Numbered from the stretch's first letter, positions 7,341 to 21,513 are shown. The stretch: 64,000 nt of DNA from Mesotoga infera (GCF_900157305.1 NZ_LS974202.1:1736001-1800000); one strand, 5' to 3'. Program-made: numbers and translations. The notes: generated from the sequence alone by a model not told the origin.

Positions 7341-9023
7341 GTGAGAAAAGCTATTCTGGTTTCCATAATGGCGCTCATGATTGTAGCTATGTTTGCAGTT
7401 AATCCATTGAATCTCTACGGAAGGGATGCAGAAGGAAGAAACGGAGTTGTAGCGGCGGCAAAGCCCGAAGCCTCGGAAGTTGGTGTTAAAATACTGGAGA
7501 TGGGAGGCAACGCCGTGGATGCGGCGATAGCGACTGCATTCGCGTTGGGCGTTCTCGAACCCAACGCTTCGGGACTGGGCGGCGGTGGATTCATGATCAT
7601 AAAGCTGGCCAACATGGACGATGCAGTTGTCATCGACTTCAGAGAAACTGCTCCATCGGCGGCCGGACCGACCTTCTTCAATCTCGATGAAAGAAACCGT
7701 GTTATCAACTACGAAACGATTATAGGCGGTAAAGCGATCGGCGTACCCGGCGAAGTAGCTGGATTGCTCTACGCTCTCGAGAACTTCGGAACCATGTCGA
7801 GGGCCCAGGTTATCCAGCCGGCCATCGAGTGGGCCGAAAAGGGCATTCCAGTCACCGTTAACCTCTTCTCGATCATCAACGACAACTACGAAAAGATAAT
7901 GATGATGGAAAACGGTGCCGAGTTATATCTGAAAGATGGCGGCATACCTTACGAAATCGGCGAGACGATAGTTCTCAAGGATCTGGCCAACACGCTCAGG
8001 ATCATCGTCGAAAAGGGTAAAGACGGTTTCTATAAGGGTGAAATAGCCGAAAAGATCGTAGCCGAGGTCCAGAAGCGCGGCGGAGTCATAACCCTTGAAG
8101 ACCTGGCCAATTACGATTTGCAGATCAGAAAGCCAGTTGTCGGTACATACAGGGATTACACGATTCTATCCGTACCACCGGCCAGTTCGGGCGGAACACA
8201 CATAATAGAGTTGCTGAACATCATGGAGAACTTCGATCTGGCCGCTCTGGGAGACAACACTCCAGAAACGCTGCACCTATGGTCGGAAGCCATGAAATTG
8301 ATCTTCGCCGACAGGGCAAAGTACATGGCAGATACCGCCTTCGTCGATGTGCCTCTCACTGGACTGACTTCGAAAGAATACGCCAGGACCCTCGCTGCCA
8401 AGATCGATCCTAGCAAACCTATGGAATCGGTTGCGGCTGGCGACCCATGGCAATACGAAAGCGGCAGCACAACCCACCTTTCTGTTATGGACAAGGAAGG
8501 AAACATGGTAGCCATAACAAAGTCGATCAACTACTTCTTCGGGTCCGGTGTCGTTGTACCGGGGACGGGAATAATAATGAACAACCATATGGACGACTTC
8601 GTCCCGACGCCAGGTTCCGCGAACTCTGTGGAACCAGGTAAGAGACCTCTAAGCAGTATGAGTCCCACGCTTGTTCTCGACCCTCAGGGGAGACCTTACA
8701 TGACCATCGGTTCACCAGGTGCCACGAGAATCATTACGACCGTCGCCCAGGTGATAAGCAATATTATCGATCACGGAATGACGATCCAGCAGGCCATACT
8801 CGCCCCGAGAGTCTTTAGAACGGCCTCCGGTCCAATGTCTATTGAAGGCAGGATATCCATCAACGCTTACAACAAATTGCTCGAGATGGGTCATCAACTG
8901 ACAGTACGTGGCGATTACGATGCCTACTTCGGAGGCGTTCACGGCGTACTGTACAACTACGATATCGGCATTCTCTTCGGAGGAGCCGATCCCAGGCGTG
9001 ATGGTCAGGCCTTCGCCTTCTGA
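7341..9023 (+). CDS. ggt: Gamma-glutamyltransferase / gamma-glutamyl hydrolase (copy 1), exported
   Basis: A 560-residue Ntn-hydrolase precursor with a signal peptide (RKAILVSIMALMIVAMF). Self-cleavage is expected before Thr377 in GSTTHLSV, which becomes the catalytic N-terminus of the small subunit. Other family sites are present: DFRETAP (gamma-glutamate carboxylate-binding Arg), PLSSMSPT (paired serines binding the alpha-amino acid end) and GSPGAT in place of the common GSPGGS. It should cleave gamma-glutamyl bonds outside the membrane. GTG start with AAGGAGGAG upstream. A perfect palindromic terminator follows, so it can be transcribed separately from the rest of the cluster, which repeats the GGT plus M14 theme. 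Confidence 0.92.
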   Translation: MRKAILVSIMALMIVAMFAVNPLNLYGRDAEGRNGVVAAAKPEASEVGVKILEMGGNAVDAAIATAFALGVLEPNASGLGGGGFMIIKLANMDDAVVIDFRETAPSAAGPTFFNLDERNRVINYETIIGGKAIGVPGEVAGLLYALENFGTMSRAQVIQPAIEWAEKGIPVTVNLFSIINDNYEKIMMMENGAELYLKDGGIPYEIGETIVLKDLANTLRIIVEKGKDGFYKGEIAEKIVAEVQKRGGVITLEDLANYDLQIRKPVVGTYRDYTILSVPPASSGGTHIIELLNIMENFDLAALGDNTPETLHLWSEAMKLIFADRAKYMADTAFVDVPLTGLTSKEYARTLAAKIDPSKPMESVAAGDPWQYESGSTTHLSVMDKEGNMVAITKSINYFFGSGVVVPGTGIIMNNHMDDFVPTPGSANSVEPGKRPLSSMSPTLVLDPQGRPYMTIGSPGATRIITTVAQVISNIIDHGMTIQQAILAPRVFRTASGPMSIEGRISINAYNKLLEMGHQLTVRGDYDAYFGGVHGVLYNYDIGILFGGADPRRDGQAFAF

Positions 9024-9061
9024 TGAAAAGTGATCGATCACACTAAATGCCTTCGTTAGAA

Positions 9062-9095
9062 AAAGGAACAGACCTGTACAGGTCTGTTCCTTTTC
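9062..9095. terminator. Palindromic terminator after the first GGT gene
   Basis: A perfect 34-base palindrome (AAAAGGAACAGACCTGT and its complement) ending in TTTT on both strands, in the gap between the GGT gene and the next M14 gene. It should stop or strongly reduce read-through into the downstream cluster. Confidence 0.8.
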
Positions 9096-9160
9096 AGCTG
9101 TTAACAGAAAGTCAACAAATTAACTTTTCAAACTTATCTCGATTATTGAAGATAGAATAG

Positions 9161-9166
9161 TATAAT
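9161..9166 (+). promoter_or_regulatory. -10 box candidate for the M14/GGT2 operon
   Basis: TATAAT in a very AT-rich stretch (9110-9170) downstream of the terminator and about 140 bases before the likely start at 9300. No good -35 is seen; an upstream AT-rich element could compensate. Confidence 0.35.
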
Positions 9167-9299
9167 TGTATAGCTGTCTTTCCTTAATCGGATGATTGTA
9201 ACCCTGCAATCGGTTTTGTACAAATCTCTGTTCCGGGTAGTCAGGCACCGTGTATCCCGGAAAGTGATACCGCATGTTTGTGAAAGGATTGGTGATCCT

Positions 9300-10427
9300 T
9301 TGAAAAAGAGATACGTTCAGTTCATTGTGTTCATCGCTGTTGTTGTCGTAATAGTACTTCTCTCGGGTTTTTCTTTCACTTCGATGTGGAAAGATCCACC
9401 TATAGTGCCGGGGCCGGGCGTCACGGAAATCAAAATGCTCAGCGACTGGTTACCTTCACTGGCTGGAACTAAAAGCGACACGGAGGTTTATATTATAAGA
9501 GGCAGTCAGCCAGGAGGAAACCTCCTTCTACTTGGCGGGAACCATCCAAACGAACCGGGGGGGATGCTGGCGGCCGTTCTTATGATCGAGAACGTTTCGT
9601 CTCTGGTTGGAACGGTGTATATAATTCCTAGGGCTAATCACAGTGCTTTTACCCACAACGATCCCATGGAAGGTGCACCGCAATTTTTCAGTATAGAACT
9701 TCCCGAGGGTTCCAAGAGGACCTTCAGGTTTGGATCCAGAAGAACTAACCCTGTGTCGCAGTGGCCCGATCCCACCATCTATAACCATCCCACAGGTTCT
9801 ACGCTCGGCGGCAGCGAGATCTCGAACCTAAACAGGGCCTTTCCCGGCCGCGAGGACGGGCTCATAACAGAGCGGGTGGCCGCCGCCATAATGAATATCG
9901 TGAAACAGGAAAAGATAGATCTTGTGTGCGACTTACATGAGTCTTCACCGGAGTATCCGGTGAACAACGCCATAGTTTTTCACCAGAAAGCCGCAGAACT
10001 GGCCATCATGACGCAGATGATGCTCGAAATGGAAGGCGTGAATATAAGGCTTGAAGAGTCTCCGCCGTCTCTGCGCGGGTTGACGCACAGAGAGATAGGT
10101 GACAACTCCGATGCGTATGTGGTACTTCTAGAAGTTGCCAATCCTTCCCAGGGCAGGCTTCGTGGAAAGACTACCGAGGAGCTCGTAACTACCGGCGTAG
10201 ATAAATATTATCTCCAGGCTTCGAAAGACGGCAAACTTTTCGCTCCGTACGATGAGACTGGATACCCGCTGGAGCTAAGGGTTGCGCGTCACGTTACCAC
10301 CGTGAGAGTCCTTCTCGATTCTTGGAATATGATGTTCCCGGATCGAATGATAATGCTCTCCGATGTGCCTGCTTACAACGCGATACTCAGTGATGGTCTG
10401 GGTGCTTTTCTAAAACCTGTTTCATAA
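9300..10427 (+). CDS. Exported M14-family deacylase/carboxypeptidase-like protein (AspA/AstE type), copy 1
   Basis: A 375-residue protein with an N-terminal membrane anchor or signal (QFIVFIAVVVVIVLLSGF). Zinc ligands of the succinylglutamate desuccinylase/aspartoacylase group are visible: His82 and Glu85 in GGNHPNEPGG and His213 in CDLHES. Members hydrolyse N-acyl amino acids or C-terminal residues. The chosen start is TTG at 9300 behind GGATTGGTGAT; an ATG at 9192 would add 36 residues ahead of the signal segment and is less likely. It lies 25 bases upstream of the second GGT gene and is paralogous to the M14 gene at 12822. The substrate is unknown; context suggests glutamyl compounds. Confidence 0.8.
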   Translation: MKKRYVQFIVFIAVVVVIVLLSGFSFTSMWKDPPIVPGPGVTEIKMLSDWLPSLAGTKSDTEVYIIRGSQPGGNLLLLGGNHPNEPGGMLAAVLMIENVSSLVGTVYIIPRANHSAFTHNDPMEGAPQFFSIELPEGSKRTFRFGSRRTNPVSQWPDPTIYNHPTGSTLGGSEISNLNRAFPGREDGLITERVAAAIMNIVKQEKIDLVCDLHESSPEYPVNNAIVFHQKAAELAIMTQMMLEMEGVNIRLEESPPSLRGLTHREIGDNSDAYVVLLEVANPSQGRLRGKTTEELVTTGVDKYYLQASKDGKLFAPYDETGYPLELRVARHVTTVRVLLDSWNMMFPDRMIMLSDVPAYNAILSDGLGAFLKPVS

Positions 10428-10452
10428 GACTTTCTTAATTGGAGGGGAAAAA

Positions 10453-12189
10453 ATGAAGAAACATGCGCTTGTTGTTATGCTCGTGGCTGTATTGTTCACC
10501 GGCCTTATCGCAACCATAACTGCCCCCACGGTAGCGTCCAGCAACGGTATGGTGGCCGCCGTCAACAATTACGCGGCAGAGGCCGGAGCCAAAATACTGG
10601 AAATGGGCGGCAACGCCATCGATGCGGCCATAGCGGTCAGTCTGGCCCTGGGTGTTGTTGAGCCTTACGCTTCCGGTTTCGGTGGCGAAGGTTACGCAGT
10701 TATAACGATGGCCGACGGTAGCAAGTATGCGATCGACTTCAGAAGTGCCGCTCCCATGATGGCTACGTACGAAGCGATCGCAGAAAAGGGATTGAAGTTG
10801 AGCTCGATATCTTACACTCCCATGGGAGTCTGCGTTCCTGGAGTTTTGGCCGGTATAAAAGAGGCCTGGCTTCTGGGAGCTACGCTTCCTCTGTCGGTTC
10901 TGGCGGCTCCGGCCATAGAGCTTGCCAGAAACGGTTTCATAGTCAATGAAACCTTTTCTCAAACGACGTCTGACACGTACGAAAGACTTCTCGAAAGCGC
11001 ATTCGACTTTCTCAACGAAGGATTCGTCTGGGAAACGGGGAGCGTTTTCAAGAACCCTGAACTGGCAGACACTATCGAGAGAATTGTTGAAGAGGGTATA
11101 GACACCTTCTACACCGGCTCGCTGGCCGACGAGATTGACGCCTTCATGGTCGAGAAGGGTGGCTTCTTGAGGAAGTCCGATCTAGAATCCTACCGCGCGA
11201 TCGTTAGAGAGCCTCTCCACGGCACCTACAGGGGATACGACCTGTACGTTCCACATCCACCGGTCTCCGGGCCGCAATTCATAATGGTTCTCAACGTGCT
11301 CGAGAACTACAACCTGTCAGCGATGAGCTGGGACGATCCGTTGGCGATTCATTTGATCCAGCAGGCATTGATTCTTGGCGACGTCGATAGAAAGGCTTAC
11401 ATAAGTGATCCGGAGTTCCATGATCTTCCTTACGAGGCTTTTATGAGCAAGGAGTACGCAAAGACCAGACTGATGTTGATCAACCCGGGAAAAGTTTTCG
11501 ATAAGCCATATGCAAGCTATCTCGGCGACGCCTATCCCTTTGCCGATGGTTCAACCTACGAGGAAGTCCTTTTAGAGCAGCTGGCCCCGGTTATGTCAAG
11601 CGCCAGAGCGGTCGAAGAATCTCCGTCCACGACGCACTTCTCGATAGTTGACAAGGAAGGAAACGCCGTATCCTGGACGCAGACGATTTCCAGCTTCTTC
11701 GGAACCGGAACTTATTTCAAGGGTTTCTTCTTCAACAACGAAATGGCAAACTTCGCCTCTTCTTACAGGGAAGGCGACGTAATAAACCTCACAGGAGGAA
11801 TGAGACCGAGAACGACGATCTGCCCGACAGTTGTTATGAAGGATGGAGAGGTTCGCTGGGTACTGGGAACACCTGGAGGCGGCAGAATAGTCTCGATGAT
11901 GGTCAATCTGGTAGTCAACCTGGTGGATTTCAACATGCCTATCGACCAGGCGATAAGATCTCCCAAGTTTGTCGGGTACTCCTCATACACCGATCTTAGA
12001 ATGGAAGAGGGTTTCCCGCAGTCCACGCTGGACTTCCTTGAGAAGATTCTCGGCCATAAACTCAACATTTACGCTTACCCCGACCTCTACTTCGGCGGTC
12101 CGAACATAATTGCCGTTGAGGAAAACGGAATGATGATCGGAGCCGGTTCCCTGAGGAGGGGTGGTTCGGCTTCAGCACCGGAATTTTGA
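10453..12189 (+). CDS. Gamma-glutamyltransferase family Ntn hydrolase (copy 2), divergent substrate site
   Basis: A 578-residue exported precursor (signal MKKHALVVMLVAVLFTGLIA). Nucleophile Thr393 in PSTTHFSIVD, DFRSAAP arginine and GTPGGGR oxyanion loop are conserved. The paired-serine segment of ordinary GGTs (SSMSP) reads TTICP, so donor recognition probably differs from copy 1. ATG start with GGAGGGGA six bases upstream. Flanked by M14 copy 1 and the DUF6305-like gene in a tight plus-strand run. Plausible alternatives within the superfamily are a poly-gamma-glutamate hydrolase (CapD-like) or an acylase. Confidence 0.88.
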   Translation: MKKHALVVMLVAVLFTGLIATITAPTVASSNGMVAAVNNYAAEAGAKILEMGGNAIDAAIAVSLALGVVEPYASGFGGEGYAVITMADGSKYAIDFRSAAPMMATYEAIAEKGLKLSSISYTPMGVCVPGVLAGIKEAWLLGATLPLSVLAAPAIELARNGFIVNETFSQTTSDTYERLLESAFDFLNEGFVWETGSVFKNPELADTIERIVEEGIDTFYTGSLADEIDAFMVEKGGFLRKSDLESYRAIVREPLHGTYRGYDLYVPHPPVSGPQFIMVLNVLENYNLSAMSWDDPLAIHLIQQALILGDVDRKAYISDPEFHDLPYEAFMSKEYAKTRLMLINPGKVFDKPYASYLGDAYPFADGSTYEEVLLEQLAPVMSSARAVEESPSTTHFSIVDKEGNAVSWTQTISSFFGTGTYFKGFFFNNEMANFASSYREGDVINLTGGMRPRTTICPTVVMKDGEVRWVLGTPGGGRIVSMMVNLVVNLVDFNMPIDQAIRSPKFVGYSSYTDLRMEEGFPQSTLDFLEKILGHKLNIYAYPDLYFGGPNIIAVEENGMMIGAGSLRRGGSASAPEF

Positions 12190-12212
12190 AATTGAGAAAG
12201 GGATGATTTGAA

Positions 12213-12764
12213 TTGAAAAAGTTACTTCTTACGTTGTTTGTTGTTTTTTGCTTCGTGTTTGTTAGTTTCGCTGTGGAAACACTCCTTGAAGAGCCCGTGA
12301 TTGTCACTTCGGCCGGTCAGTCCCCGGGAGCTCTCCAGTTCACTGTTGTCGCCAAGATGGTGAATCTGGACTACAAGTTCGATAAACTGTACAAGGTCGA
12401 AGACGTCGATATGAGTCAATTCAAGACCTTCGTCATCGTTGTCGGCGCGAGCGGCAAGGGTCTGGGAGCGGCCGGAATCGATCTCGAAGTCGAGATCAAC
12501 AGAGTTCTGGCACTGGCAAATAAGGCAAAAGAAAACGGATTGAAAATAGTGATCTGCAACCTCGAAGGAGCCTCGAGAAGGGGTGAATCGTCGGATAGAA
12601 TAGTCACGACTCTGGCACCATTCGCCAGTGTCTACTTTGTTAAGTCCGATGCCAACGAGGACGGTTTCTTCACCACTTTGAGCGAAAAGGCCGGAGTTCC
12701 CATGGCCACGTTTGAAATGACGGTGGGACTGAAGGATGTACTGGCGCAGTATTTCGGTAAGTAA
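12213..12764 (+). CDS. Small secreted DUF6305-like protein
   Basis: A 183-residue protein with a signal peptide (KKLLLTLFVVFCFVFVSFA) and a flavodoxin-like alternation of strands and helices (TFVIVVGASGKGLG, GLKIVICNLEGASRRG). The sequence matches my memory of the DUF6305 family; the number is recalled, not searched. TTG start behind AAAGGGATGA. It lies between GGT copy 2 and M14 copy 2. Because the DctM-type permease downstream has no visible DctP receptor, this secreted protein is a candidate ligand-binding or accessory component; that is inference only. Confidence 0.65.
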   Translation: MKKLLLTLFVVFCFVFVSFAVETLLEEPVIVTSAGQSPGALQFTVVAKMVNLDYKFDKLYKVEDVDMSQFKTFVIVVGASGKGLGAAGIDLEVEINRVLALANKAKENGLKIVICNLEGASRRGESSDRIVTTLAPFASVYFVKSDANEDGFFTTLSEKAGVPMATFEMTVGLKDVLAQYFGK

Positions 12765-12772
12765 CTGAAATG

Positions 12773-12800
12773 GGGGCGTCTCAGCGCGCCCCTTTATTTT
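12773..12800 (+). terminator. Intercistronic terminator/attenuator
   Basis: GGGGCG (12773-12778) pairs with CGCCCC (12787-12792), followed by TTTATTTT. It sits only 22 bases before the next start, so it probably reduces rather than ends transcription of the M14 copy 2/permease part of the cluster. Confidence 0.6.
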
Positions 12801-12821
12801 AGACCGGAGGAAAGGCATAGA

Positions 12822-13889
12822 ATGAAGATGAAAGCGATAGTAGTAGCGTTTTTAATTCTGGCAACAGCAACTCTAGGTTCGTTTTTCAGGCCCGATGTGA
12901 GGCCCGGCTACGGTGTGACTGGAATAGGCTGGCTATCTGATTATTTCACACCTCTTAAGGGAACGAATATGGATACGCCCATCTACTTCATGGACAGCGG
13001 CAATGAGGGGCCGACCTTCCTTCTCATGGGTGGAACTCACGGAAGGGAGATCTCTGGTACGACGGCCGCTCTGGTCTTTATAGAGAACGTAGTCGTCACG
13101 AAAGGAAAAGTAATCGTGATGCCCTTCTCCAATATAAGCGGTGTCTCCATTCCAGATGAAACCGGTAAAGCGCCGCATTTCATTCAGGTCGAAACCAAGT
13201 CCGGCCCGCGCTTTCTGGTGTACGGCGACAGGAGGACCGATCCGGTCGATCAGGGGATACCCGATCCAGTAGTTTTTATGCACGCACAGTCGGGGTTCAC
13301 GTTGGAAGATGGAACGGAAGCGAGAAATCTTAATAGACAGTACCCGGGAGTGGCAGATGGCAATCCGACCCAGCAACTGGCCTATGCGATCATCGAGATG
13401 ATAAAGGCCGAGAAGGTAGATTTCAACTTGGATATGCATGAGAGTGGTACTCCCGACGAGTACATAGACGAAAGAGGCAATACCCGGTCTGGCAGTAGTT
13501 TGGCCTATACACTGGTCTGCCATCCAGACGCGCTTGAGATAGGCGCCGTAGCCATAATGGAAATCGAAGCCTTCTACGGTATTTCGATGAAGCTCGAGGA
13601 ATCCAACCTTAGTTACAGAGGTCTCAGCCATCTGGAGATAAGAAACGCCACCGGCTCTCTTTCTTTCCTTTCAGAGACGCCCAACCCCGGCCAGGATTCG
13701 TGGAGGAAAGTCTACGACGTGATAAACGATCCCGATTACCCTTTGAAACACAGGGTCGGCCTCCAGCTCCAGATAATACAATCGCTGTTCAACGCTTACG
13801 AAATGCTCATGGGAGAGACGGTTCTGGTTACGGGACTACCCTCTTATGACGAAACGATGGAAAACGGTTTATTCATATACCTGAACTGA
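12822..13889 (+). CDS. Exported M14-family deacylase-like protein, copy 2
   Basis: A 355-residue protein with a cleavable-looking signal peptide (MKMKAIVVAFLILATATLG). Zinc-site residues are His73 and Glu76 in GGTHGREISG and His206 in LDMHESG. It aligns throughout with M14 copy 1: RPGYGVT against GPGVT, NLNRQYPG against NLNRAFPG, and a related C-terminal end. The pair therefore arose by duplication. Expected chemistry is zinc hydrolysis of an amide next to a carboxylate (desuccinylase or aspartoacylase-like). ATG start with CCGGAGGAAAGG upstream. Confidence 0.8.
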   Translation: MKMKAIVVAFLILATATLGSFFRPDVRPGYGVTGIGWLSDYFTPLKGTNMDTPIYFMDSGNEGPTFLLMGGTHGREISGTTAALVFIENVVVTKGKVIVMPFSNISGVSIPDETGKAPHFIQVETKSGPRFLVYGDRRTDPVDQGIPDPVVFMHAQSGFTLEDGTEARNLNRQYPGVADGNPTQQLAYAIIEMIKAEKVDFNLDMHESGTPDEYIDERGNTRSGSSLAYTLVCHPDALEIGAVAIMEIEAFYGISMKLEESNLSYRGLSHLEIRNATGSLSFLSETPNPGQDSWRKVYDVINDPDYPLKHRVGLQLQIIQSLFNAYEMLMGETVLVTGLPSYDETMENGLFIYLN

Positions 13890-13910
13890 TACTTCCTGGG
13901 GGTGATAGAG

Positions 13911-15266
13911 ATCTATACGCCTGAGATCTGGTATTTCATCGTAATGCTTGCCACCTTCGTGGGACTTGCGGCGATCAAAATTCCGATATCCGTTTCTCTG
14001 ATGTTTTCGGCTCTCGCTGGCTCGTTAGTCTTCGGCGAATTTTTCCCATTGAGGCATTTGGTTGAAGGTGGGTTCGCCTATCTGGATACGATACTCGTTA
14101 TCTCTTCGGCCATGATCTTCATGGAATCGATCAAAGTATCCGGGCTGCTCGAAACCATAGCCGGAAACATGACGGTGGCGCTCCACAAGAAGCCGACCTT
14201 CTTGCTGGTTTTGATGACTTTCTTCATTATGATAGCCGGTATGATAACCGGATCGTCAACCGCGACCGTTCTGACGACGGGAGCAATCGCTTATCCTGTC
14301 CTGAAAAGCCTTGGACTGAGCAAGAGAAGGGCCGGCTCAATAATTGCCATGAGCGGTATATACGGTATGATAGCCCCACCGATAAACCTTCCGGCCATGA
14401 TCATCGGTCAGGGAGTCGATATGCCCTACATCGGCTTCACCACGCCGCTGCTCTTTGTGACCTTCCCGATCGCAATAGTCACCACGCTAATAATCGGTGT
14501 AAGGAAAGTAAAGCCCGTCGAACTGGACGAGTTCAAAAAGACAAGGGAAAGCGAGCCTGTGAAAGGCTTTGCGGTCTATCTCCCGCTCATCGTAATGGTC
14601 ATACTCATGGTGCTCGAGAACGTGAGCTGGGGCTTCTCATTAGGACTCCCGTTGATATTCATGATTTCAGCGTTGATCGCCGTGGTCACCGGAAGAAGAG
14701 GCAACATACTAAAGATCTCCTTTACCGCCATTCAAAACGCTCTCGGGATACTTTCGATACTGATAGGCGTCGGTATGTTCATCCAGGTGATGACCATGAA
14801 CGGCGTCCGCGGTCTGATAGTCGGTTATTTGAACAGTCTACCCCAGGGCGCCCTGCTTCTGGGTATAGCACTGGGAATCCCGGCCTTTGGAGCAGTCTCT
14901 TCTTTCGGTTCCTCATCGGTTCTGGGAGTTCCCTTCCTACTGGCCTTCCTGGGCAGCAACGATATCGTAGTCTGTTCGGCCCTGTCGCTACTGGCCGGTC
15001 TTGGAGACATGGTTCCCCCGACTGCGCTCGCCGGTATCTTCGCGGCGCACGTGGTGGGCGAGAAGAAATACTTCAAGATATGGCTCAGCTCGATGCCGGC
15101 CTTCTTCATAACTATGGTCTTCGCCACCCTGACTATCGTATGGGCCACACAGATAGGCCGATTCGTCAACAGCGTCTTCTTCTATCCCGTGTTTATAGTG
15201 GCCTTAGTCTTGATGGCCGTCGCTTTACTGCTGATCGATAAGAGAAAGGAGAGTGTTGCCAGATGA
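13911..15266 (+). CDS. DctM-type large permease (TRAP/ion-transporter superfamily), probable AUC start
   Basis: About 451 residues and 11-12 membrane segments. DctM-like signatures include TGSSTATVLTTGAIAYP and SGIYGMIAPPINLPAMI; the inverted-repeat half carries GLGDMVPPTALAG. It should couple uptake of a carboxylate to an ion gradient. No DctP receptor or DctQ subunit is encoded nearby. The first possible GTG (13902) lies inside the Shine-Dalgarno GGGGGTGAT; the ATC at 13911 is four bases after it, the spacing used by neighbouring genes, and is preferred. It ends in an ATGA overlap with a 47-residue membrane protein. Context suggests uptake of products of the GGT/M14 enzymes. Confidence 0.8.
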   Translation: MYTPEIWYFIVMLATFVGLAAIKIPISVSLMFSALAGSLVFGEFFPLRHLVEGGFAYLDTILVISSAMIFMESIKVSGLLETIAGNMTVALHKKPTFLLVLMTFFIMIAGMITGSSTATVLTTGAIAYPVLKSLGLSKRRAGSIIAMSGIYGMIAPPINLPAMIIGQGVDMPYIGFTTPLLFVTFPIAIVTTLIIGVRKVKPVELDEFKKTRESEPVKGFAVYLPLIVMVILMVLENVSWGFSLGLPLIFMISALIAVVTGRRGNILKISFTAIQNALGILSILIGVGMFIQVMTMNGVRGLIVGYLNSLPQGALLLGIALGIPAFGAVSSFGSSSVLGVPFLLAFLGSNDIVVCSALSLLAGLGDMVPPTALAGIFAAHVVGEKKYFKIWLSSMPAFFITMVFATLTIVWATQIGRFVNSVFFYPVFIVALVLMAVALLLIDKRKESVAR

Positions 15267-15406
15267 CTTTCATATACATACTCATAGCGATATACATAGC
15301 CTCCATTCTCCTTTACTATGTCTTCAAAAAGGCCAGCAAGTGGGAGTGGGTGATGAGCGCTATGATACTCATTCCGTTGATTCTGAGGATCTTCCTCATC
15401 AAGTGA
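15263..15406 (+). CDS. 47-residue two-helix membrane protein coupled to the DctM permease
   Basis: The ATG at 15263 overlaps the permease stop as ATGA and the frame ends with TGA at 15404-15406. The product has two hydrophobic helices (TFIYILIAIYIASILLYYV and SAMILIPLILRIFLI) separated by the basic/aromatic KKASKWEW. Overlap and hydrophobicity support a real translationally coupled gene. It could be a reduced small subunit for the permease, taking the place of DctQ, but no homology is claimed. Confidence 0.6.
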   Translation: MTFIYILIAIYIASILLYYVFKKASKWEWVMSAMILIPLILRIFLIK

Positions 15407-15414
15407 GATACCTT

Positions 15415-15467
15415 CCGGGGAACCGATGGCAGGTCTATAATTATCGTATGCCATAAAGGTTCCCCGG
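15415..15467 (+). promoter_or_regulatory. Inverted repeat enclosing a -10 box and reaching the next ribosome binding site
   Basis: CCGGGGAACC at 15415-15424 pairs perfectly with GGTTCCCCGG at 15458-15467. Inside, ATGGCA (15426-15431) pairs with TGCCAT (15449-15454) around a loop holding TATAAT (15436-15441). The right arm runs into GGGAGG, the Shine-Dalgarno of the MFS gene. In a read-through transcript the stem would occlude that site. A transcript starting after the internal TATAAT would lack the left arm. It may also act as an operator. Confidence 0.55.
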
Positions 15468-15479
15468 GAGGTAGTTATC

Positions 15480-16709
15480 TTGAAAATGAAGAAAGACGCC
15501 CAGTTCTACAAGTTTGCAGTTTATGGTTTCCTGAAAAACCTCCGCTTTTTCGATCCCTTTTTGATCCTTTTTTTCAGAGAGATGGGTCTATCTTTTCTCG
15601 AGATAGGGACTCTGATCTCCGTGAGGGAAATAGCCACCAACATACTCGAGCTCCCCACCGGGTTCATAGCCGATCTCTACGGTCGCAGGATGTCCATGGT
15701 TCTCTCCATGGTATCTTATCTTGCTTCGTTCATGGTCTTTTATCTCTTTCCAAACTTCTTAGTTTATATGGTCGCGATGGTTGCCTTCGCCTTCGGCGAG
15801 GCCTTCAGGACGGGTACTCACAAGGCCATGATTCTAGAGTATTTAAGATTGAACGATATGATGGATATAAAGGTCGACTACTACGGAGCCACCAGAGCCG
15901 CATCACAGATGGGATCTGCAATAAATGCCTTAATCGCCGCCTTCCTGGTCTTCTACAGCGGTAGTTACAGGATAGTCTTCCTGGCCTCGGTCATACCTTA
16001 TCTTCTGAATCTAGTCAACCTTTCGACTTATCCCAAAAATCTGGACGGCGAGCTTAAAACCAGCCAGAAGGGCGAGACCTTCAAGGCCTTCTTCGGTATT
16101 TTCAAGAGCCGGGACTCTTTCAGGGGCGTGCTGAACTCCTCCCTTTACGATGCCTTTTTCAAGGTCGTTCAGGAGTATCTGCAGCCGATATTGAAGGCTA
16201 TGGCTATCGGGCTGCCCGTGATGGTTACCTTGAAACCCGACCAGAGGACGGCGGTTCTTGTCGGCATAGTTTACTTCGTCATCTATTTTGCCACCAGCTA
16301 TGCTTCGAAGAACGCCGGGAATGTCAGCAAGAAGTTTGGAAACGAGGCTAGGGCGTTGAATTACAGTTACCTTCTGGGCGCTGTATTGATCATCTTCAGC
16401 GGTCTCTTCCAAAGATTGGGAATACAGCTGGCAGCGGTCGCAGTCTTTTTCCTGCTTTTCGTCTTGGAAAACCTGAGAAGACCGGTGAATATAAGTTATA
16501 TAAGCGACACTATCGATCATAAGACAATGGCCTCGGGTCTGTCGGTGGAATCACAGCTGAAAACGTTACTGATGGCCATACTGGCTCCTGTTATAGGTTT
16601 TTTGGCCGACAGGTTGGGCGTCGGGCTGGCCCTGATGCTGGCAGGTCTCCTGATGGCCGCTCTCTTCTTCCTTGTGAGCCTGAGATCGGCCGGAAGTAAA
16701 GGCAGTTGA
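15480..16709 (+). CDS. MFS transporter
   Basis: A 409-residue protein with about 12 membrane segments and the MFS loop 2-3 motif (GFIADLYGRRMSMV, related to GxLaDrxGrkxxl). It most resembles drug/sugar efflux-type MFS proteins, with substrate unknown. TTG start at 15480, eight bases after GGGAGG; an ATG two codons later is the alternative. The promoter/inverted-repeat element directly upstream suggests it is expressed independently of the GGT/M14 cluster. Long loop between helices 6 and 7 (about 185-215). Confidence 0.85.
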   Translation: MKMKKDAQFYKFAVYGFLKNLRFFDPFLILFFREMGLSFLEIGTLISVREIATNILELPTGFIADLYGRRMSMVLSMVSYLASFMVFYLFPNFLVYMVAMVAFAFGEAFRTGTHKAMILEYLRLNDMMDIKVDYYGATRAASQMGSAINALIAAFLVFYSGSYRIVFLASVIPYLLNLVNLSTYPKNLDGELKTSQKGETFKAFFGIFKSRDSFRGVLNSSLYDAFFKVVQEYLQPILKAMAIGLPVMVTLKPDQRTAVLVGIVYFVIYFATSYASKNAGNVSKKFGNEARALNYSYLLGAVLIIFSGLFQRLGIQLAAVAVFFLLFVLENLRRPVNISYISDTIDHKTMASGLSVESQLKTLLMAILAPVIGFLADRLGVGLALMLAGLLMAALFFLVSLRSAGSKGS

Positions 16710-19362: not shown

Positions 19363-19392
19363 ATAGATGCTGAACGGAGGTGAGAGAGCGAG

Positions 19393-19596
19393 ATGCTGAC
19401 CACTTTTCTTGCGATTGTCGGTGCGTTGTTTCTGCTTTATCTGGCGATAAGGTACTTCCCCGCCCTCATCAAGCTGGTGATAGGGATCGGAGTCGTTCTG
19501 GTGGTGGTTTTTGCTTTCGCCGGTTTTGTGGTGGTCTTCCTGCCGATCCTGATAATTATAGCGATAGTCCTGCTTGTTGTGAAGCTTGTAAAATGA
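19393..19596 (+). CDS. Small hydrophobic membrane protein
   Basis: A 67-residue protein, almost wholly hydrophobic, with two or three membrane-spanning stretches (LTTFLAIVGALFLLYLAI, LVIGIGVVLVVVFAFAGFVVVF, ILIIIAIVLLVVK). Good Shine-Dalgarno CGGAGGTGA. The stop overlaps the nitrilase start as ATGA, so the two are co-translated. Function is not recognised. Confidence 0.6.
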   Translation: MLTTFLAIVGALFLLYLAIRYFPALIKLVIGIGVVLVVVFAFAGFVVVFLPILIIIAIVLLVVKLVK

Positions 19597-20519
19597 AAAC
19601 TATCGATCTGACGGCCATTCAGGTCCATTTCGACGCGACGACGTTTTCAAGGGAATCGTTCGCGAGCGCAATGGACCGATATGTTCGTCTGGCCCGTGGT
19701 CTCTGGAGGGGTGAGCGTCATGTCACGGTCTTTCCGGAGTTCTTTCCGACCTTTCTTTATCCTGCATTCAGAGGCATGACCTTAAAAGGCGGTCCGGGAA
19801 AGATCCTTTTGAAGTACGCGCTCAAGAATACGGGGCTCTCTCTCAATCCTCTCAGACAGGCCTTTTTGAATCACGCTTTAGAAATAGAGCTCTTTTATCG
19901 CGAAACGTTCGGAGCGCTGGCCGGGGAATTTAAAACTTATCTGCTGGCACCTTCTATCCTGATGCCTGAGGTTGATTTCGAATCTTCAAGGGGAACCTTC
20001 TTGAGGGATAAGAGGTTGTACAACATGGCTTATCTCTTCAGCCCTCAGGGCCGGCTCATCGCGAAGATCGCCAAACGCAATCTTACGGACGCAGAGAGCA
20101 GGATACTCTTCTCCAGGGGAAGCTCCTTCGGCAATATAGCCGAGACTTCAATCGGAACACTGGGTGTCGCCATCTGTTACGATATGTTTTTTGAGAGCGA
20201 AGTGAGGAGACTCGATTCTAGTGGCTGCGAGATCCTTCTCGTTCCTTCCTGCAACTTCGCTCCATGGAAGGCCCATTTGAACGGATCAACTCAGGAGAGG
20301 GTATGGTTCAGAGATGGTCCGATCAGCGCGTCGAAAGACAGGGAGAACATACGTTTTCTGGTGAACGCGATGGCCGTCGGCGATATTGGTGGGCAGACCG
20401 CCCAGGGAAGATCTTCCATATGGCACAACGGCAAGGTTCTGGCCATATCGCGGGAGGTCGAGCGGGAAGATGTCGTGAATGCCATAGTGGAACTGGATTT
20501 TTACCCGGGCGGACTTTAG
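19593..20519 (+). CDS. Nitrilase-superfamily carbon-nitrogen hydrolase
   Basis: A 308-residue protein with the Glu-Lys-Cys triad of the superfamily: Glu49 in VFPEFFP, Lys161 in IAKRNL and Cys195 in VAICYDMFFE. Members cleave nitriles, amides or N-carbamoyl groups; the subfamily cannot be decided here. The start ATG at 19593 overlaps the stop of the preceding hydrophobic gene. An unusually long insertion (about 55-115) precedes the Lys region. A longer frame beginning at 19380 is an artefact of the overlap. Confidence 0.82.
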   Translation: MKTIDLTAIQVHFDATTFSRESFASAMDRYVRLARGLWRGERHVTVFPEFFPTFLYPAFRGMTLKGGPGKILLKYALKNTGLSLNPLRQAFLNHALEIELFYRETFGALAGEFKTYLLAPSILMPEVDFESSRGTFLRDKRLYNMAYLFSPQGRLIAKIAKRNLTDAESRILFSRGSSFGNIAETSIGTLGVAICYDMFFESEVRRLDSSGCEILLVPSCNFAPWKAHLNGSTQERVWFRDGPISASKDRENIRFLVNAMAVGDIGGQTAQGRSSIWHNGKVLAISREVEREDVVNAIVELDFYPGGL

Positions 20520-20583
20520 AGAATCGCGGGTAGTATAATCTAGTCGGCAATCGTACAGGGCCAGATTCAAAGGAGGTATACGA

Positions 20584-21513
20584 GTGAAAATAGCGGTAGT
20601 ACACGACGAAAAACCCGGTGAGGTCGGCATGAAGATGCTGAAAAGTATCGCCGGTGTTTTAGAGAAACACCACGAAGTATTCCCAGTGCCGCTCACGTCG
20701 AAATTCGTTGAAAGGATCGAGAGTGAAGGTATAGAGTTCGTCTTTAACATCGCAACCGGAGGTGAGGGCCACCAGAGACAGGTCTATGTGCCTGCTATAC
20801 TCGACTTCTGGAATATACCTTATACCGGTTCTGGTGTGTCGGCCAACTGCCTATGCATCGACAAATCGCTCACCAAAATAGTTATGGCCGACAGCGGTAT
20901 ACCAACCCCTAAGTACGTTTGCTTCAAACAATCTCGTCCGGTTGAAGAGATAGATTTCTATCCGGCCATTGTAAAGCCTTCGCGCGGTGGAAGCGCCGTT
21001 GGAATATGGGCAGATTCGGTGGTCAGTGATAGGGTCGAACTCGAAAGGGCCGTGGAGAGAATTCACAGGGAATACGGAGAACCAGCCCTGGTTGAAGAGT
21101 TCATAGTCGGTCGAGAATTCAGCGTCGGGATAGTCGGACACACGGTACTACCCATTCTTGAGATAGACTTTTCTTCACTACCGGAGGGGATGGAACGATT
21201 CTACTCTTACAGAGTCAAGCAGTATCTAGGCGAGAAAACCGGTTACATCTGTCCGGCCGTCATACCGGAAGTTCTGAAAGCAGAGATCGAAAGCTTATCG
21301 CTAGAACTCTTCGATAGGCTCGATCTGGGCGATTATGCGCGCATGGATATAAGGGTCGATAAGTACGGCGAGCCGTACTTTCTCGAGGTAAACTCCCTCC
21401 CGCTGCTCGTTCCCGATTACTCGGATATAGTAAAGATGGCGCTGGCAGCAGGCTGGGAATACGACGATCTGATACTCGCAATTCTGGATTCCGCTATAGA
21501 GAGAAGAAGGTAA
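20584..21513 (+). CDS. ATP-grasp ligase resembling D-alanine-D-alanine ligase
   Basis: A 309-residue ATP-grasp enzyme. The N-terminal domain has TGGEGHQRQ and IPYTGSG, as in Ddl proteins. The central domain has AIVKPSRGGSAVGI (ATP-binding Lys and glycine loop) and LVEEFIVGREFSVGI. The C-terminal domain has ARMDIRVDKYG and FLEVNSLPLL (metal-binding Asp, Glu and Asn). It joins two amino acids or similar carboxylates with ATP. Whether it is the cell's Ddl or a paralogue with another substrate is not decidable; it is separated from cell-wall genes. GTG start after GGAGGTATACGA. The next gene begins four bases after its stop. Confidence 0.82.
   Translation: MKIAVVHDEKPGEVGMKMLKSIAGVLEKHHEVFPVPLTSKFVERIESEGIEFVFNIATGGEGHQRQVYVPAILDFWNIPYTGSGVSANCLCIDKSLTKIVMADSGIPTPKYVCFKQSRPVEEIDFYPAIVKPSRGGSAVGIWADSVVSDRVELERAVERIHREYGEPALVEEFIVGREFSVGIVGHTVLPILEIDFSSLPEGMERFYSYRVKQYLGEKTGYICPAVIPEVLKAEIESLSLELFDRLDLGDYARMDIRVDKYGEPYFLEVNSLPLLVPDYSDIVKMALAAGWEYDDLILAILDSAIERRR

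Follow-up and report, generated by a model that had tools for sequence, protein, structure and literature searches.

The window analysed here is a stretch of 64,000 nucleotides from the genome of Mesotoga infera (Thermotogota), which is available as a single contig of 2.97 Mb. A first-pass annotation of the window had described seven genes, two for exported γ-glutamyltransferases (GGTs), two for exported zinc deacylases, and one each for a DUF6305-like secreted protein, a carboxylate permease and a tiny membrane protein. All seven were confirmed, six by searches with Pfam and NCBIfam profiles and the tiny protein as a member of a conserved family (Table 1). The gene arrangement is not due to chance, as it recurs across genera. 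For M14a, comparison with relatives favours the TTG start codon at 9300 over the start of the longest open reading frame (ORF) at 9192. Downstream of the cluster, at positions 19380-21513 of the window, a gene for a carbon-nitrogen hydrolase (PF00795) is followed by one for a D-Ala-D-Ala ligase-like ATP-grasp protein (PF07478).

Table 1. Genes and predicted RNA structures of the cluster; positions are counted from the first nucleotide of the window
Feature	Position	Strand	Basis
GGT1, exported γ-glutamyltransferase	7341..9023	+	PF01019 5e-163, TIGR00066
Strong hairpin 3' of GGT1, terminator candidate	9065..9090	+	RNA fold
M14a, AstE/AspA-type zinc hydrolase with N-terminal hydrophobic segment	9300..10427	+	PF24827 AstE_AspA_cat 4e-8
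GGT2, exported, predicted CapD-like γ-glutamyl hydrolase/transpeptidase	10453..12189	+	PF01019 2e-123
DUF6305, a single exported domain that may act as product-binding subunit	12213..12764	+	PF19823 6e-42
Terminator-like hairpin between DUF6305 and M14b	12772..12793	+	terminator scan and fold
M14b, exported AstE/AspA-type zinc hydrolase of GGT-type modules	12822..13889	+	PF24827 1e-8
DctM-like permease, TRAP/DASS fold	13902..15266	+	PF06808 6e-12, AlphaFold2 model
47-aa two-helix membrane protein, candidate DctQ replacement	15263..15406	+	conserved family
Long inverted repeat closing the operon	15409..15475	+	RNA fold

GGT1 retains the canonical active site (N411, D433, S462 and S463 when aligned to E. 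coli GGT) and has no lid loop. It adjoins the other genes in two genomes only, the source genome and G026 (UBA1373), and in G024, G027, G028 and G029 the GGT1-like gene is either distant from the module or located on a different contig. The interval between GGT1 and M14a folds with -23.9 kcal/mol (positions 9050-9105; z -5.1, no shuffled sequence being as good), and its hairpin was missed by the terminator scan, the T run being too short. Since GGT1 homologues are mostly found elsewhere and the hairpin separates GGT1 from M14a, the duplicated GGT of the first-pass annotation is a local feature and not part of a conserved unit. The distribution across genomes thus rules out GGT1 as a core member, and it is probably a neighbour or add-on forming a transcription unit of its own. 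The hairpin between DUF6305 and M14b (-19.6 kcal/mol, z -3.6) lies inside the operon and may attenuate expression of the downstream permease genes. The sequence 3' of the 47-aa gene folds as a long inverted repeat (positions 15405-15480; -40.2 kcal/mol, z -6.9).

Conserved core and its distribution

We searched 103 Thermotogota genomes for DUF6305 and inspected about 40 neighbourhoods. DUF6305 was present in 18 of the genomes with one to seven copies each, and the neighbourhoods revealed a core made up of DUF6305, a DctM-like permease, a two-helix membrane protein of 47-60 aa and an M14 zinc hydrolase, which was found in about 35 loci from 7 of the 38 Thermotogota genera as well as in Cetobacterium (Fusobacteriota). 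In the main DUF6305 subfamily the gene order is DUF6305, permease, small protein, M14a-like hydrolase, M14b being interposed in some loci. DUF6305 lies beside the permease gene on the same strand in 33 of the 35 loci with a near full-length permease, and the small protein is encoded on the permease strand in 33 of these 35; the exceptions are contig ends and locus L051, where DUF6305 is located just past the distance limit we had set. The permease is therefore not the lone protein it had been taken for, since DUF6305 and the two-helix protein accompany it. Beyond the Thermotogota the module was reached through a plasmid collection only, and a single-protein scan of genome contigs gave one close relative. 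Spread of the module by viruses was considered and rejected, as a single-protein query with DUF6305 against viral contigs found no relative.

Complete loci additionally encode an exported Ntn hydrolase, which is either GGT2, accompanied by M14b, or, in a sister form of the module, one or two C69 peptidases (PF03577) in place of the GGT, with a cysteine expected from their sequences at the mature N-terminus. By copy number, C69 is more common than GGT as the hydrolase of the core. In a maximum-likelihood tree of the permeases, loci of the GGT type and of the C69 type are set apart with one change each (none of 500 shuffles was as good), the two groups having support values of 81/97 and 91/78, respectively. 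Permease type thus pairs with hydrolase type, as would be the case if the product of the enzyme were the cargo of the permease. Correlations of distance matrices (permease and small protein, rho 0.81; permease and M14a, 0.73; permease and DUF6305, 0.43) agree with co-inheritance, but are no proof of contact.

The source genome encodes three module permeases. It also contains a decayed copy of a GGT-type module (L117 3324-4876, about 2.8733-2.8749 Mb), in which a GGT2-like ORF is shortened to 342 aa and M14b is reduced to a 98-aa fragment, and an extra M14a-type gene (G000:C1:629263-630375) that lies beside none of the three permease genes. The GGT-type module of G024 is disrupted (L111 9768-13076), with a truncated M14b beside two transposase-like ORFs and with GGT2 and DUF6305 absent there. 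The permease of UBA1373 is split into two overlapping frames of 118 and 372 aa (L034 11693-12989) by either a frameshift or a sequencing error.

Active sites of the hydrolases

Both GGT1 and GGT2 score above the cut-offs of PF01019 and TIGR00066 and have the equivalent of Thr391. Relative to E. coli GGT, GGT2 carries the changes N411S, D433N and S462T and lacks the lid loop, and it shares S411, N433, T462 and the catalytic Thr with each of the 12 other distinct GGT2 proteins encoded in modules. When GGT2 was aligned with CapD (PDB 3g9k), CapD proved to have the same three replacements, a set that occurs in GGT2, but not in GGT1. The two enzymes also share the GGT fold, the catalytic Thr and the lack of a lid loop. 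Genes for poly-γ-glutamate (PGA) synthases are present in the source genome but unlinked to GGT2, and are linked to the module in G063, G064 and G101. They differ at position 463, which is Thr or Ile in module GGT2 proteins and Phe in CapD, and in that the GGT2 gene is clustered with those for M14 enzymes and a permease. The CapD-like changes are not universal, as canonical residues are found in the GGT encoded by the Cetobacterium operon. Asp433 touches the α-amino group of the donor, and in the D433N variant of E. coli GGT transpeptidation is abolished while 82% of the hydrolysis is left; GGTs devoid of a lid loop have an open cleft that is thought to admit PGA (PMC8062742). As the inner residues of a γ-linked chain have an acylated α-amino group, the loss of Asp433 in GGT2 would fit an attack within the PGA chain.

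M14a and M14b are 35% identical, score above the cut-off of PF24827, and have zinc ligands (HxxE...H), an NR motif and a catalytic Glu that are invariant across 27 aligned relatives. They share this domain and the full catalytic set with the zinc deacylases AstE, AspA and DoeB, but are exported and reach only about 30-50 bits with characterised members. PGA-cutting zinc hydrolases of the same fold class have been described, namely PghP and PghL (PMC4497714, PMC6506827), which have a zinc carboxypeptidase-like fold (PMC6506827). M14a and M14b, however, belong to a different sequence family, the Pfam search returning AstE_AspA_cat and no match to the γ-PGA hydrolase family.

Permease, DUF6305 and the 47-aa protein

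The permease matches PF06808 with 45.6 bits (cut-off 23.8), and its AlphaFold2 model (pLDDT 85.9) has structural matches to SiaQM and IseQM, which are TRAP transporters, and to DASS carriers; the Cetobacterium row was left out of the alignments used for structure prediction. DUF6305 was modelled with a pLDDT of 91.9 as a single three-layer α/β domain, for which profile and fold searches gave generic Rossmann-like matches only and no specific structural relative. We thus rejected the idea that it is a two-lobed protein of the DctP/TctC type, as the model contains one α/β domain and no such protein stood out in the searches. The conserved motifs T32-G35 and G78-G83 are located at strand ends, which in the model may correspond to the positions where Rossmann-like proteins bind their ligands. 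The 47-aa protein has no match in Pfam or NCBIfam and belongs to a family of 35 members encoded beside the permease, with two hydrophobic stretches, an invariant Tyr in helix 1, an invariant Leu-Arg near the end and a near-invariant final Lys. In size it presumably resembles CapE and PgsE, small proteins encoded in PGA operons.

Like the TRAP systems (DctP-DctQ-DctM, TAXI-TRAP and TPAT), the module combines a large permease of DctM family and fold with one exported and one small membrane protein. In contrast to the two-lobed DctP and TAXI binding proteins, however, DUF6305 has a single α/β domain, two helices are predicted for the small protein, against four in DctQ, and neither DctP nor DctQ is encoded in the module. 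A single ordinary DctP-DctQ-DctM set is found in the source genome, at 1.003-1.006 Mb (DctQ at 1.0046 Mb, DctP at 1.005 Mb). As this is the sole DctP/DctQ pair of the genome, the three module permeases are without standard partners, and orphan DctP or DctQ proteins encoded elsewhere were dismissed as partners for the same reason. We hypothesize that DUF6305 and the 47-aa protein substitute for DctP and DctQ. Going further, we tentatively suggest, as a possibility we would not yet favour, that the module represents a TRAP-like importer of a new class, having DUF6305 and the micropeptide instead of DctP and DctQ, that it is dedicated to re-importing fragments of self-made PGA released by the linked exported hydrolases, and that its core is retuned by the exchange of GGT for C69.

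Solitary DUF6305 genes with neither permease nor M14 nearby (L036, L041, L046, L066, L070 and L073) belong to a divergent subfamily, in which the G78 motif is followed by a short insertion. Yet another DUF6305-like form, the third, has GGGRCCD at its end and is encoded between the two C69-type modules (L035 12653-13321, L038 15377-16168, L042 15786-16415, L064 14443-15072, L068 8359-8988) next to a gene for a repeat protein of roughly 425 aa.

Link to poly-γ-glutamate and possible function

On megaplasmid p1 of Cetobacterium somerae the genes for a GGT, DUF6305, the large TRAP permease, a 47-aa protein, an M14 enzyme, PgsB, PgsC and PgsW follow each other on one strand, so that this fusobacterial pgsB-pgsC-pgsW system is contiguous with the module. 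In the source genome, by contrast, the two parts are found at separate loci, and the GGT of the operon is CapD-like and accompanied by two M14 enzymes. Within the Thermotogota, the GGT-type modules of G063, G064 and G101 directly adjoin pgsB-pgsC-pgsW. In G018 these three genes lie close to a C69-type module, and in G053 and G054 pgsW is immediately next to a C69 gene. PgsW (TIGR04332) was detected in 17 Thermotogota genomes, and 16 of them belong to the 18 DUF6305-positive ones. The two genomes with DUF6305 only are assemblies in more than 400 contigs, and the genome with PgsW only has a completeness of 80% but still contains partial permease and M14 sequences. At the genus level the distributions of DUF6305, DctM, M14 and PgsW coincide, each covering 7 of 38 genera (Fisher test, about 8e-8, related genera not being fully independent). 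In the source genome PgsB, PgsC and PgsW are present (TIGR04012, 236 bits; TIGR04332, 348 bits; PF14102, 120 bits), their genes being arranged as pgsC-pgsB-pgsW at about 1.103-1.105 Mb, unlinked to the window. A search of this genome for PgsA/CapA gave only a marginal match to PF09587 (30.6 bits) in a 497-aa frame far from the pgs locus. Our limited literature search found no paper on DUF6305, none naming PgsW and none joining Mesotoga with PGA, which is weak evidence.

Given these data we consider the chances about even that the module (9300-15406) serves the turnover and re-uptake of PGA or of a close γ-linked relative, where we infer the substrate, the order of the cuts, the roles of DUF6305 and the micropeptide, and the direction of transport. 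PgsB, PgsC and PgsW would make the polymer. GGT2 would then cut γ-glutamyl bonds outside the cytoplasmic membrane, including those with a blocked α-amino group, and the M14 enzymes would trim the fragments to small γ-glutamyl peptides or glutamate. DUF6305 would collect the anionic product and hand it to the DctM-like permease, an ion-coupled elevator carrier that the 47-aa protein would assist. The earlier idea of exported γ-glutamyl and zinc amidases feeding a carboxylate-type importer is supported, the composition of the unit having been corrected. Among the substrates proposed for it, PGA is favoured by the pgsB/pgsC/pgsW linkage, the co-occurrence and the CapD-like GGT2, whereas glutathione and N-acyl glutamates gained no support. 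The separate location of module and pgs genes in the source genome, the canonical residues of the Cetobacterium GGT and the existence of the C69-type sister module count against this reading.

The sister module is also central to a different, rather unlikely explanation, namely that the module generally scavenges γ-glutamyl and N-acyl amino acids and dipeptides from outside with no specific tie to self-made PGA, the pgs linkage reflecting shared glutamate metabolism. The same core is combined with C69 peptidases in more copies than with GGT, and the M14 enzymes fall, by sequence, into the AstE/AspA/DoeB group, which cuts N-acyl amino acids; the genus-level match with PgsW, the repeated contiguity with pgsBCW and the CapD-like nature of GGT2, however, speak against scavenging. 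Alternatively, GGT2 might act in capsule maturation like CapD, releasing PGA chains and attaching them to the cell surface, with M14 trimming and the permease set supplying glutamate for synthesis. CapD itself anchors PGA (PMC8062742), GGT2 has its three active-site residues, and in Cetobacterium and G101 the module genes run in one line with those for the synthase. We nevertheless regard this as unlikely, because the D433N variant of E. coli GGT loses transpeptidation and keeps hydrolysis (PMC8062742), and two zinc hydrolases plus an importer suit breakdown better than assembly.

It is very improbable that DUF6305, the permease and the tiny protein are part of the PGA synthesis or export machinery and import nothing. 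Their repeated contiguity with synthase genes would fit, and the lack of a strong PgsA/CapA in the source genome means that another protein might replace it, but PgsW is the more natural substitute, the permease has the fold of an elevator carrier for small solutes, and several module copies per genome are set against a single pgs locus. Hardly any weight can be given to GGT2 being a glutaryl-type (class IV cephalosporin) acylase in a cluster that handles unrelated acylated compounds: class IV cephalosporin acylases do have Asn at position 433 (PMC8062742), and PDB 2nlz, named cephalosporin acylase, is among the matches, but S411 and T462 match CapD as well and the genomic context is polyglutamate.

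If turnover and re-uptake of PGA is the true function, diderm anaerobes would possess a closed cycle in which PGA is made, cut and re-imported. With this reading, DUF6305 and a conserved orphan micropeptide receive a first hypothesis on what they do, and a further form of TRAP-type transport is suggested. The evidence shifts the novelty of the cluster towards the unfamiliar partners of its transporter, and the unit towards a recurrent core with exchangeable hydrolases.

In the source genome, within a region (L100 6798-11084, about 1.1028-1.1071 Mb) that holds pgsC-pgsB-pgsW, these genes are followed on the same strand side by a gene of the OPT family (PF03169), and the pairing of pgs genes with an OPT oligopeptide transporter recurs in G024 and G028. 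This transporter may move γ-glutamyl peptides.
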